Origin: a virus
Virus record (IMG/VR): IMGVR_UViG_3300042868_004830
Span: 1 to 20,352 of that record
Length of the DNA stretch: 20,352 nt
Strand: one strand, 5' to 3'
Positions 13,598-20,044 of this stretch are shown here, piece after piece. Under the pieces are notes generated by a model. It searched no databases, was not told the origin of the DNA, and saw only the letters and a list, made by a program, of their open reading frames with translations. Position 1 is the stretch's first letter, and every line of letters begins with the position of its first letter. The position numbers and the translations under genes are program-made.

Positions 13598-14140
13598 ATG
13601 GCAACACCACCAGACTTCACAGACGCCACAGCACTAGCGGCATCATCACTCAACTCAATCGGATTATGGAAGACGGCGTCGGTCACTTTGACAGGGCAAA
13701 CAACCGCATCACTAACTAACGCATTCACATCCGATTACTCGAATTATTTGTTTGTGTATAACGTAAGAACCAACACAGGCACAACAGCCATGAGAGTACA
13801 ACTAGCCATCAATGGCACACCAAACGCAACCGCCGGTTCCTACATCGTTGGCGGTCGCTTTGTTGGCTATCCAGGAGTAGGAGCGGCAGACTTCAATGCA
13901 GCAGACCCATACTTCGGCTTTTCATTCATGGCTACATTTCCCAATAATGGACACGTAACAATCTCTAACCCCTTTGACACTACGCCCACCTCCATAACAG
14001 GAAACTATTCAAGCAATAATGCAATGGTCGTGGTAGGTGGTTACCACAATCAAAGCGTCTCCTATAACGGCCTATACATCACGAACAGCGCAACGGCTGC
14101 TCTTTTTGGCCAATTCAGCGTCTACGGAATGAAAAAATGA
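13598..14140 (+). CDS. Tail fibre-like beta protein, probable host contact
   Basis: This 180-residue protein is Thr/Ser/Asn/Gly-rich and beta-stranded. It has SVTLTGQTTASLTNAFTSDY, then SNYLFVYNVRT, and ends LFGQFSVYGMKK. The N-terminal LTNAFTSDYSNYLF and C-terminal VYG segments recur in receptor-binding or fibre proteins of environmental phages. It follows the minor tail gene by seven bases, with AGGA at a good distance before the ATG. Its base composition is more T-rich than its neighbours, in line with a horizontally exchanged host-range gene. The stop overlaps the next start (ATGA). Confidence 0.7.
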   Translation: MATPPDFTDATALAASSLNSIGLWKTASVTLTGQTTASLTNAFTSDYSNYLFVYNVRTNTGTTAMRVQLAINGTPNATAGSYIVGGRFVGYPGVGAADFNAADPYFGFSFMATFPNNGHVTISNPFDTTPTSITGNYSSNNAMVVVGGYHNQSVSYNGLYITNSATAALFGQFSVYGMKK

Positions 14141-14274
14141 ACAACGAAAACAAACCAACAATCATCATCCACGACGGTCTAACTGGCGAAACCATTATCC
14201 GAGAACTAACAGAAGAAGAACTAGCGCAACAACCGCGCGAACCTTCAATCTTTGAAACATTGTCTAACGAATGA
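14137..14274 (+). CDS. Small acidic protein after the fibre gene
   Basis: This 45-residue frame reads MNNENKPTIIIHDGLTGETI and then IRELTEEELAQQP. It overlaps both neighbours by four bases (ATGA on each side), a strong sign of a translated gene. The pattern TGE..IRELTEEELAQ is familiar from short phage proteins following tail fibre genes. Those may help fibre assembly or be virion parts, but this is unproven. Confidence 0.75.
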   Translation: MNNENKPTIIIHDGLTGETIIRELTEEELAQQPREPSIFETLSNE

Positions 14275-15482
14275 TGCGCCGGCTCCTGCCCCTAGTAGGA
14301 GTCGTAATCGCACTAACCGCAACAGCACAAAAAGCAACTGCGAACAACGACGGCTTGACCGTAACCGGCTACGCCATAACAGACGTCCCGCCGATCAAAA
14401 ACGCGACGACGTACCAGCAATGCGGAACAACGACCGCGGCCTTCATAAACACCGTGTACGAATACGATCCAATAGGCGATTGCGGAACCGACATGTTCAT
14501 GGCGCACTACACCGGTACCATAAACATCCCCGCGCACAACACGATCGAGTTCTGGCTCGCATCCGACGACGGCGGCACCATAAAAATTGGCACAGATGAA
14601 TGGGGCAACTGGTACGACCAGGGATGCACCGCAACGGAAAGCGGACCACTTCAAATCGCGCCAGGCCCGCAGCAGCTCGATGCCTGGTTCTACGAGAACG
14701 GCGGCGGCACGTGTTTCATGTTGGCCTGGAACATAGACGGCCAAGGCTGGGAAATAATCCAGCCGGACGCGTTCACTCGTCCAACACCCGCCACAACCAC
14801 GACGACCTCCACCACCACCACAACCACAAGCAGCACGTCGACAACGACCACCACAACCACCACGACCACCGCACCACCCGCAACGACGACGCCGGCGACC
14901 ACCTACCCCGCAACAACGACAGCCCCAACAACAACGACGATCAACGTCCCGCCTTCCACCGCTGCCAACACAACCAGCACACAGCCCCCTGCACCGCAGC
15001 AGACAACCACAACAACAACAACATCGACCACGACACTAGCGCCACCCCCTGTCACCAATAACACCATCGACGAAGCCGTTCTGGATTTGCTAACAACCGC
15101 GCAAGACATCCCACAAGCAGAAGTGCAAAAAGCGATCACCGCCATCATTGACGCCGGCGTCAACGACGCAGAAGCGCAACAACTAGCAACGACACCAGCG
15201 GTCCTGGAAGCAGCCACAACAGAACAAGCCGCCGCGATTTTCGAGGCCATCAATGAAGACAACCTCACCATTGAACAAGCGACCGCGATCGCGGAAGCAG
15301 TACAAAACGCGCCCGACAACGTACGTCAAGAATTCGAAGCGGCCATTAACATTTTTAGCGGCAAGACCGACAACTACACCGCCGTCGGTTCACGCGTACC
15401 AGTTCGCACAAGACGCATCATCATCATCACAACCGCTCTCCTGGTAGCAGTACCAGCACCACAACGAAAGACCACCACATGA
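14271..15482 (+). CDS. Secreted, membrane-anchored PA14-like surface protein
   Basis: This 403-residue protein has a signal peptide at 1-24 (Arg-Arg, LLPLVGVVIAL, cut after ATA). A beta domain at about 30-165 resembles PA14 (HYTGTINIPAHNTIEFWLAS, DDGGTIKIGTDEW, WFYENGGG). It has four cysteines (51, 71, 119, 148) that could form disulfides outside the cell. A Thr/Pro linker runs from about 172 to 260. A helical region (261-360) and a C-terminal membrane helix (IIIITTALLVAVPA after RTRR) follow, with a short basic tail. This is the plan of a host cell-surface protein, not of a virion part. It starts at ATGATG overlapping the previous stop, and the stop overlaps the next ATG. A surface-masking or superinfection role is possible but unproven. 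Confidence 0.85.
   Translation: MMRRLLPLVGVVIALTATAQKATANNDGLTVTGYAITDVPPIKNATTYQQCGTTTAAFINTVYEYDPIGDCGTDMFMAHYTGTINIPAHNTIEFWLASDDGGTIKIGTDEWGNWYDQGCTATESGPLQIAPGPQQLDAWFYENGGGTCFMLAWNIDGQGWEIIQPDAFTRPTPATTTTTSTTTTTTSSTSTTTTTTTTTTAPPATTTPATTYPATTTAPTTTTINVPPSTAANTTSTQPPAPQQTTTTTTTSTTTLAPPPVTNNTIDEAVLDLLTTAQDIPQAEVQKAITAIIDAGVNDAEAQQLATTPAVLEAATTEQAAAIFEAINEDNLTIEQATAIAEAVQNAPDNVRQEFEAAINIFSGKTDNYTAVGSRVPVRTRRIIIITTALLVAVPAPQRKTTT
14784..15050 (+). repeat. Thr-codon (ACN) low-complexity tract
   Basis: This section encodes the Thr/Pro/Ala linker of the PA14-like protein with runs of up to ten Thr codons. ACC, ACA and ACG are mixed, so the DNA is not a perfect repeat and slippage should be limited. 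It is coding sequence, not a CRISPR or satellite array. Long Thr linkers are common in exported actinobacterial proteins. Confidence 0.8.
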
Positions 15483-15634
15483 AATTCATCCAAGACAACG
15501 TCTGGACCTGGGCCGGCACCGGCATAGCCCTAGTCTCAATGTCCGGCGTCGTACAATCCCGCGCACTAGCCATCTCCGGCGCAGCGGTTCTTCTACAATT
15601 AGCACTAGCACTATTCATGAAAGAACCAGAATGA
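15479..15634 (+). CDS. Small two-helix membrane protein, holin-like
   Basis: This 51-residue frame begins MKFIQDNVWTWAGTGIALVS, with a first hydrophobic stretch to about residue 24. A second membrane segment follows (ALAISGAAVLLQLALALFM), ending KEPE. It overlaps both neighbours by four bases (ATGA). Two short helices beside a second small membrane gene and an endolysin suggest a holin or antiholin. No family is recognised, so its part in lysis is inferred from place and topology. Confidence 0.75.
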   Translation: MKFIQDNVWTWAGTGIALVSMSGVVQSRALAISGAAVLLQLALALFMKEPE

Positions 15635-15855
15635 AACCAACAACAGTAATTGCTCGCATCGTCGCCGTCTTTGGCACCAGCGCACTAAGCGCCCTAGCAG
15701 GCGGAGCCATCCTCGGAGTTGATCTAGCAAAGGCAGCAGGCATGGCCGGCTTCATGGCCGCAGCAGGCGTCCTGGAGCGCGTACTACGCGCCTATTACGA
15801 AGACGGCGTCCTTACAAAAGAAGAACTAGACAACGCCGTCGGCGGCAAAAAATGA
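15631..15855 (+). CDS. Holin candidate
   Basis: This 74-residue protein has two membrane helices (about 8-30 and 34-48) and a charged C-terminus (ERVLRAYYEDGVLTKEELDN). The pattern GGAILGVDLAKAAGMAGF followed by ER..RAY..DG.LT.EE matches small actinophage holins that sit next to the endolysin. A holin opens the membrane at a set time to release the endolysin. It is flanked by four-base overlaps with the 51-residue membrane gene and the endolysin. Confidence 0.8.
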   Translation: MKPTTVIARIVAVFGTSALSALAGGAILGVDLAKAAGMAGFMAAAGVLERVLRAYYEDGVLTKEELDNAVGGKK

Positions 15856-16373
15856 GCAACACGCAACGCCCATACACCGGCTTCGACAAAGTAGGAACAG
15901 CGACACATCCCGCTGCTAAGAAACTAAGTGACCTACTACAACGCCGATGGAAAATGGATTACATGGGCGGCCTCGTAGTACGCGTAATGCGGTCAGCACC
16001 AGCAGCGATCCAAAAACTAGATCCACACAACCCCAAGTGCGCACCGTACATGTCTGTTCACGCAACAGGCAGAGCGGTCGATATTGGCCACGCCGATCCC
16101 AAATTGCTAGACACCGTTTTCACGTACCTGGTCGCAAACGCCACCGAGCTCTGCCTCGAAGAAATTCATCAGTACAACTACAAAGCACCCAAGGCAACTA
16201 AGGCGTGGGGCCGCGGCTACCGCTGCAGCAGAGCAAACAAGAACGCCGGCGTCGTAGATTGGGATGCCAAGAACAACGGCGGCACACCAGGCGGAATGTG
16301 GATCCATTTCGAGGTGGCACCAGGCGCAGACCCCGCCGCCATAGAAAGCCACTTCAGAGCAAACAAGGCTTAA
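15852..16373 (+). CDS. Endolysin, M15-like zinc peptidase
   Basis: This 173-residue protein should cut peptide bonds in host peptidoglycan. The motif SVHATGRAVDIG (68-79) gives zinc ligands His70 and Asp77 with the H-x6-D spacing of D-Ala-D-Ala/L-Ala-D-Glu carboxypeptidases. WIHFEV (150-155) gives the third ligand, His152. The length is that of a single catalytic domain with no separate wall-binding domain and no signal peptide, so a holin is needed for export. It closes the structural/lysis operon and is followed at once by strong hairpins. Confidence 0.88.
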   Translation: MSNTQRPYTGFDKVGTATHPAAKKLSDLLQRRWKMDYMGGLVVRVMRSAPAAIQKLDPHNPKCAPYMSVHATGRAVDIGHADPKLLDTVFTYLVANATELCLEEIHQYNYKAPKATKAWGRGYRCSRANKNAGVVDWDAKNNGGTPGGMWIHFEVAPGADPAAIESHFRANKA

Positions 16374-19311: not shown

Positions 19312-19661
19312 ACCAACAGCCCTCACTATTTGACGCCCTGCCCATCGACACCACGATCAACCCGATTAGGCTGGCAAGAACCACAGACCCAGACACCTCA
19401 CACAAGGCCGCAGAGAACGCATCGCGCCGCGGCCCCTCACAAAGGAAACGCATATGGGAAGCACTCCAGCGTCTAGGCGACGCTACCGATTACGAACTAT
19501 CCATCGAAGCGGGCATCCTGCGCAGCAGCGCAGCGAAACGACGCCAAGAACTACAAGACCTGGGACACGTAATGCCGACAAAGGACCGCAGGAAAACAGA
19601 CACAGGATCGCTCGCAGTAGTTTGGCGCTGTTCATATGCCTCGCCATACCAGGGCTCCTAA
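19308..19661 (+). CDS. Winged-helix protein with TSH motif and clamp-like peptide
   Basis: This 117-residue protein contains LARTTDPDTSHKAAE (22-36), a signature repeatedly found in actinophage DNA-binding proteins. A winged helix follows: SQRKRIWEALQRLGDATDYE (44-63), AGILRSSAAKRRQELQDLGH (68-87), and a wing to LAVVWR. The very N-terminus reads MNQQPSLFDA; QPSLF at residues 4-8 fits the pentapeptide by which replication proteins bind the DnaN sliding clamp. It may join phage DNA to the host replisome or regulate a promoter. Another reading frame overlaps its second half. Confidence 0.75.
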   Translation: MNQQPSLFDALPIDTTINPIRLARTTDPDTSHKAAENASRRGPSQRKRIWEALQRLGDATDYELSIEAGILRSSAAKRRQELQDLGHVMPTKDRRKTDTGSLAVVWRCSYASPYQGS

Positions 19662-20044
19662 TGGCAACGCCAGTACAAGCAGGCAGCATCTACCACCGCA
19701 ACTATCACGGCGTACTTCCAGACGCCTACTATGACGGCCTCGCCCAATGTGAAACAGGCGGCAACTGGAACCACAGCACCAAGTCCTACACCGGCGGACT
19801 AGGCATCTACCGCGGCACGTTCAAACGCTGGAGCAACCACACAAGCGCAAAAGGAATGACACCACGACAACAAGTCAAAGTCGCAGACGCGATCGCGTTC
19901 AAAGGCCACACAGAGCAAGACGGCACACACGTATGGAGAGTAGGTCCTTGGGGCTGGGGCTGCCTACGCAACAGCCCACGACTTCAGCAGTTCATCTGCC
20001 GATCGGCGCACCCACTAGTCCGCAAGTGGAAACGCAACTGCTAA
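19454..20044 (+). CDS. Rpf/transglycosylase-like wall hydrolase with signal peptide
   Basis: From ATG 19454 (AAAGGA upstream) the protein has 196 residues. A basic N-terminus leads to a signal-like segment (RIARSSLALFICLAIPGLL at 51-69, then ATPVQA with a cut after residue 76). A domain follows with AYYDGLAQCETGGNWN (91-106), in which Glu100 takes the place of the catalytic Glu of resuscitation-promoting-factor lysozyme-like domains. TGGLGIYRGTFKRW and VGPWGWGCLR complete it. It would cleave peptidoglycan glycan strands. The start is uncertain: 19661 (TAATG after the previous stop) gives a 127-residue form without a hydrophobic signal, and TTG at 19622 is a third choice. The longer form overlaps the HTH gene by 208 bases. 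Confidence 0.78.
   Translation: MGSTPASRRRYRLRTIHRSGHPAQQRSETTPRTTRPGTRNADKGPQENRHRIARSSLALFICLAIPGLLMATPVQAGSIYHRNYHGVLPDAYYDGLAQCETGGNWNHSTKSYTGGLGIYRGTFKRWSNHTSAKGMTPRQQVKVADAIAFKGHTEQDGTHVWRVGPWGWGCLRNSPRLQQFICRSAHPLVRKWKRNC

Follow-up and report, generated by a model that had tools for sequence, protein, structure and literature searches.

A small tailed phage encodes, directly ahead of its lysis genes, a predicted lectin-headed surface protein and a small membrane partner, which we read as a late-expressed, two-gene lectin display on the infected cell, most likely a coat against the adsorption of competing or newly released phages (probability of roughly 0.55). The stretch of DNA that was analysed (hereafter the window) is the whole of one virus record from IMG/VR, 20,352 bp long, in which end repeats were looked for and none was found. 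It holds terminase, portal, protease, capsid, tail, tape measure, lysis and replication genes, several of which were identified by sequence resemblance. The terminase is closest (32-33%) to those of small actinobacterial phages, e.g. Gordonia phage EricDab and Arthrobacter phage Jessica, and an exported-looking protein at 19454-20044, a second candidate secreted protein, carries an Rpf-type transglycosylase domain (PF06737, 2e-7). Based on these two resemblances, an actinobacterial host is likely. Upstream of the terminase, positions 91-1389 encode a fusion of ParB-N with an N6/N4 DNA methyltransferase.

Table 1. Features of the surface gene and its neighbours; positions are those of the window.
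Feature	Position	Strand	Basis
45-aa small tail-region ORF	14137..14274	+	read from sequence
Stalked PA14 surface protein, 403 aa	14271..15482	+	ORF and translation; homologue family
Predicted signal peptide (residues 1-24), likely cut after A22-T23-A24	14271..14342	+	sequence; AxA conserved in homologues
PA14 lectin head, residues 28-169, invariant Cys51/71/119/148	14352..14777	+	AlphaFold, Foldseek, family profile, alignment
D99-D100, equivalent by alignment of the Ca2+-binding DcisD pair (MpPA14 Asp110-Asp111)	14565..14570	+	alignment; 77/77; PMC8092209
YENGG loop (141-145), with N143 as the counterpart by alignment of Gln156 in MpPA14 loop 11	14691..14705	+	alignment
Thr/Pro-rich stalk, residues 170-262	14778..15056	+	composition; homologue spacing
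Helical C-terminal module, residues 268-375, core FExxINIF...Y..VGSxVPV	15072..15395	+	AlphaFold; family alignment
Putative anchor: VPVRTRR, hydrophobic stretch, PAPQRK, residues 376-403	15396..15479	+	sequence; AlphaFold; homologue C-termini
Membrane partner of 51 aa with two helices (PHROG 29041, function unknown), joined to the surface gene by an ATGA overlap	15479..15634	+	sequence, homologous loci
Separate holin-like protein, 74 aa, ATGA-coupled	15631..15855	+	sequence
Putative peptidoglycan peptidase of the lysis cassette; no convincing Pfam match	15852..16373	+	sequence resemblance

The open reading frame at 14271-15482 is real and translates as originally predicted. The 45-aa ORF shares an ATGA with each of its neighbours, its ATG overlapping the stop of the tail gene at 13598-14140 and its TGA the start codon of the surface gene. 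Every junction onwards to the 51-aa gene (15479) and the holin-like gene (15631) has the same ATGA arrangement. By these overlaps the surface gene is part of a coupled tail-lysis run, and from its membership in this run we infer late expression. The coding strand is A/C-rich over the whole window (1-20352), with an AT skew of about 0.2-0.5 and a GC skew that is negative throughout. The possibility that a Thr-rich reading frame merely reflects such a composition was excluded, since frame, head and C-terminal module are conserved across divergent phages. The anatomy was the same in every homologue that was not cut by the end of a contig.

The N-terminus of the protein reads MMRR, followed by LLPLVGVVIALTA and then by ATA-NN, with the expected cut between ATA and NN. 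A hydrophobic N-terminal region was present in all homologues tested for a signal peptide, and A-x-A stands directly before the mature head in 43 of the 67 distinct homologues with enough N-terminus (11.2 expected by shuffling). This enrichment argues for the signal peptide that had been proposed, probably a cleavable one of the kind found in Sec-exported proteins. The sequence of the surface protein contains no lipobox; cleavage is instead expected after AxA.

Searched alone, the head of the window protein gave a weak Pfam PA14 match (E=6, below the Pfam cut-off). However, PF07691 was matched by 11/11 aligned family members (best 3e-8), and the family profile found the RsgI3 PA14 domain (6qe7) in the PDB at 3.9e-16, plus other PA14 domain structures. 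AlphaFold modelled the head with a pLDDT of about 90, and the best Foldseek matches of this model were a sugar-bound Marinomonas PA14 (E 4e-8), RsgI-type PA14 and then yeast Epa/Flo lectins. Family profile and fold exclude a chance PA14 call and place the modelled head in PF07691, as expected from the PA14-like domain of the original prediction.

In PA14 lectins, neighbouring aspartates joined by a cis peptide (DcisD) hold the sugar-binding Ca2+ with the assistance of loop 11 (PMC8092209; PMC6218569), and Gln156 in loop 11 of MpPA14 helps to coordinate the sugar diol (PMC8092209). Over 77 distinct heads, D99, D100, G101, G102, Y141, E142 and G145 never vary, nor do the four cysteines at 51, 71, 119 and 148 that had been noticed at the outset; N143 is kept in 72/77. 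The YENGG loop aligns with the Gln156-Gly157 region of MpPA14, and large phages, whose PA14 heads are distant, also retain both ADDG and YENGGG. By alignment, the DcisD pair and the second calcium loop of Ca2+-dependent PA14 lectins appear to be present, and the head is predicted to bind sugar. The fold, the DcisD-equivalent aspartates and the second loop are shared with known PA14 lectins (PF07691; MpPA14 of Marinomonas, RsgI3, yeast Flo5/Epa1), as is the placing of a lectin head on a cell-surface stalk. These lectins have a GPI or RTX anchor, whereas the phage protein has a membrane tail and a two-helix partner, and Asp159 of MpPA14 is replaced by Gly146 in the phage head.

Composition bears out the predicted Thr linker, as there are 50 Thr and 15 Pro among the 93 residues from 170 to 262. 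In 79 distinct homologues the Thr/Pro-rich spacer between head and C-terminal module measures 94-218 aa and is never shorter than 94; extended, such a stalk could span a monoderm cell wall. AlphaFold likewise predicts the expected helices (268-358) and a last helix at 378-393, and the core of the module continues in the family as FExxINIF...Y..VGSxVPVxxRR. The motif [VI]x[VI]xxR[RK] occurs in 62/66 distinct C-termini and is followed by an uncharged run (median 17), after which at least two K/R are found in 61. The evidence on the membrane helix claimed after RTRR points both ways: the helix at 378-393 and the conserved RR-hydrophobic-basic tail speak for it, but the hydrophobic stretch of the window protein has only about 15 residues, short for a full membrane span, with arginines on its outer flank. 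In versions fused to the partner, the C-terminus was modelled with three predicted membrane helices at low confidence, and neither AlphaFold model makes the packing of the parts visible. Motif, hydrophobic stretch and basic end are reminiscent of LPXTG/PEP-CTERM-type sorting signals; in contrast to these, the tail has no LPXTG-like motif and its arginines precede the hydrophobic stretch. A sortase or PEP-CTERM-like substrate was rejected, as LPXTG is absent from the window protein and the listed homologue C-termini, and a search of the surface protein against NCBIfam gave no match. Taken together, the conserved signal peptide, anchor and head support a phage surface protein that is probably exported and membrane-anchored, in agreement with the original prediction.

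That prediction had left out the 51-aa gene, the swapping of heads, natural fusions and the joint loss of both genes in close relatives. In all loci whose contig extends past the surface gene, a protein of 51-59 aa comes after it, which is predicted to have two membrane helices and carries the motif W[TV][WL]AGTG.VL.TLSG. Across all fetched loci, this two-helix protein lies downstream of, or is fused to, the C-terminal module in 188/188 distinct testable modules, 19 of which are fused; conversely, the module is found upstream of all 138 distinct two-helix proteins (138/138). As judged from these gene neighbourhoods, the two are inseparable and the two-helix protein is an obligate partner. The surface protein of phage DSL-LC01, like that of many large-phage contigs, itself ends in the two-helix part, which sits behind an acidic linker. 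Gene fusions of this sort usually point to proteins acting together. Fused versions (L282:6010-6762 and relatives) keep a methionine at the join to the two-helix part (M-KKF, M-KRTF), as if it were an old or still used internal start. At another locus (L240:3562-4008), an HNH-type ORF is inserted precisely where the surface gene would otherwise meet the two-helix gene.

At least 484 viral loci were found with the profile of the C-terminal module and at least 584 with that of the two-helix protein, the contigs overlapping between the two scans; locus lists comprise the best 80, and counts are of distinct sequences, not of independent events. Hundreds of related aquatic phages keep this scaffold. 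Its head is PA14 in most loci, and other heads are beta-rich (LGxWTYSQSC type), of a second type (FDDLSQWTVVRNGGNG), FnIII-resembling, or tiny and cysteine-containing. Heads on this scaffold scored above the Pfam cut-offs for L-type lectin (5.7e-43), SUEL (1.5e-7), C-type lectin (1.5e-5) and PA14 (7.4e-8). A single stalked large-phage protein (L285:3307-6792) has both L-type lectin and SUEL (rhamnose/galactose-binding) lectin domains, and another large-phage version (L297:3871-6591) has a C-type lectin domain as its head. Thus, across these loci, stalk, anchor and partner stay constant while heads change, and since several unrelated lectin folds sit on one anchor, glycan recognition appears to be the common theme.

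Individual members of the family have been deposited as "PA14 domain" or as hypothetical or uncharacterised proteins. UniProt/BFVD A0A6J5SZ50, a "PA14 domain containing protein" of an uncultured Caudovirales phage, matches over nearly the full length (423 columns, 34% identity); it is an uncharacterised record, for which we found no description of a partner or system. Protein WJZ48438.1 of the Actinomycetia phage DSL-LC01 (OQ999401), annotated as hypothetical, shares the stalk, C-terminal module and two-helix part but differs in having other heads, one of them FnIII-like, a fused two-helix part and a 129-kb phage as its source. Host prediction, together with WhiB genes and the phylogeny of its terminase, led to the assignment of DSL-LC01 to Actinomycetia (PMC10611076).

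The idea that the gene was taken from an actinobacterial host found no support. In a scan of 84,980 cellular genomes with a single peptide pattern, no C-terminal module was confirmed, and the PA14 relatives of the head in these genomes were distant (24-38%) and confined to Planctomycetota, Verrucomicrobiota and Bacteroidota; a scan of plasmids gave none. Since neither the one-pattern module scan nor the head scan yielded a close cellular copy, against hundreds of viral ones, a host origin is unsupported. It is therefore barely credible that the protein is a host adhesin of recent acquisition, a passenger with no role in infection. Such cargo would fit the accessory status of the pair among close relatives (see below), and Thr-rich stalks are reminiscent of secreted actinobacterial proteins; the number of viral copies, the conserved position and the strong conservation of head and partner argue otherwise.

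Small phages share the gene order tape measure, minor tail, variable tail genes, surface gene, two-helix gene, holin, peptidase, and in large phages the surface gene has tail-fibre, glycosyltransferase and lysis genes around it; the location between tail and lysis genes that was first remarked on in the window therefore recurs in both. The median identity between phages is 63% for the head, compared to 37% for the minor tail protein, 32% for the tape measure and 24% for the tail6 protein. Head divergence follows that of the peptidase (Spearman rho 0.86) but not that of the presumed host-range tail genes tail6 (0.16) and g4 (-0.07). In close relatives, with minor tail proteins about 77% or peptidases 66-84% identical, the surface and two-helix genes are jointly absent. 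Their slot is occupied by a 69-73-aa lipobox protein and a different holin-like gene in four relatives (L302, L316, L317 and L319), and by a different holin-like gene alone in L303/L327. The predicted slot lipoproteins (L302:3502-3708, L316:737-955, L317:1125-1331, L319:3505-3711) are Cys-rich with an LTGC or ITGC lipobox, and each is a candidate exclusion protein. A weak DrmC match of a slot lipoprotein looks like signal-peptide or low-complexity noise, and the PADLOC defence families gave no match for the surface protein or the two-helix protein. Given this joint loss and replacement, the pair is an accessory unit, and its slot is one that takes exported proteins.

We propose that the surface protein, made alongside the tail and lysis proteins, would be exported by its signal peptide and fixed in the membrane by the helical module and the RR-flanked hydrophobic tail, together with the two-helix partner. 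The stalk would hold the Ca2+-dependent PA14 head beyond the cell wall, where it may bind glycans, most likely on the envelope of the infected cell itself. Late-infected cells and debris coated in this way would be adsorbed to less by competing or newly released phages. Adsorption blocking is favoured as the presumed benefit because a small lipoprotein is exchanged into the same slot and because T5 offers a precedent, where the gene for the exclusion lipoprotein Llp adjoins that for receptor binding (PMC9586334). The head does not covary with the tail genes, which speaks against its hiding the specific receptor used by the phage itself. The same lack of covariation leaves room for adhesion in trans, in which infected cells displaying the lectin would stick to neighbours or glycan-rich particles and lyse near new hosts. 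We regard this as possible though rather unlikely. The heads have lectin or adhesin folds, the Marinomonas adhesin and Flo/Epa adhesins are among the closest PA14 structures, and a PA14 pocket that is strongly conserved while tail genes diverge (the head at 63%, against 37% and 24%) fits a common, phage-independent ligand. However, the small lipoprotein in the slot of close relatives is of a type better known from exclusion, and production from a lysis operon would leave little time for building aggregates.

A role in lysis, with the two-helix protein as holin or antiholin and the stalked lectin as a surface sensor or envelope disruptor setting the time of lysis, would explain why overlapping, coupled genes stand immediately ahead of holin and peptidase. 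The partner does have two predicted helices beside lysis genes, yet the window and its relatives carry a separate holin-like gene and a peptidase downstream, and in several large phages the two-helix part is fused to the lectin with separate lysis genes (non-contiguous or on the opposite strand in DSL-LC01, L285 and L291). Since the lysis cassette is complete in relatives that lack the pair and the fused gene of DSL-LC01 lies away from the endolysin, we consider this role improbable. Even less probable is a virion tail protein, either receptor-binding or an accessory fibre. The surface gene does lie directly downstream of tail-fibre genes, and lectin-like domains are frequent in phage tail proteins, but a family-wide signal peptide, a basic-flanked hydrophobic C-terminus and the linkage or fusion to a two-helix membrane protein are at odds with it.

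The display proposed here has known parts, namely a PA14 lectin, a surface anchor and a phage exclusion protein; in the open-access papers searched, no description of a two-component lectin-display system was found, nor of this combination, and possibly more than the combination is new. T5 Llp and Cor of T1/phi80 are likewise exported phage proteins encoded beside receptor-binding or tail genes. Compared to them, the surface protein is far larger and has a lectin head, a long stalk and a partner gene but no lipobox. Host-surface-altering phage proteins are mostly small lipoproteins, membrane proteins and glycan-modifying enzymes. We give an even chance to the wider proposal that this is an undescribed, widespread system of aquatic, probably actinobacterial, phages of about 20-200 kb, in which a two-component anchor bears interchangeable lectins of unrelated folds as a coat that excludes rivals or steers cell contact. 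If so, a modular stalk with exchangeable lectin folds and a constant small membrane partner would be a different phage strategy for the host surface, and hundreds of aquatic phages would keep a virus-run glycan-recognition coat on the cells they infect.
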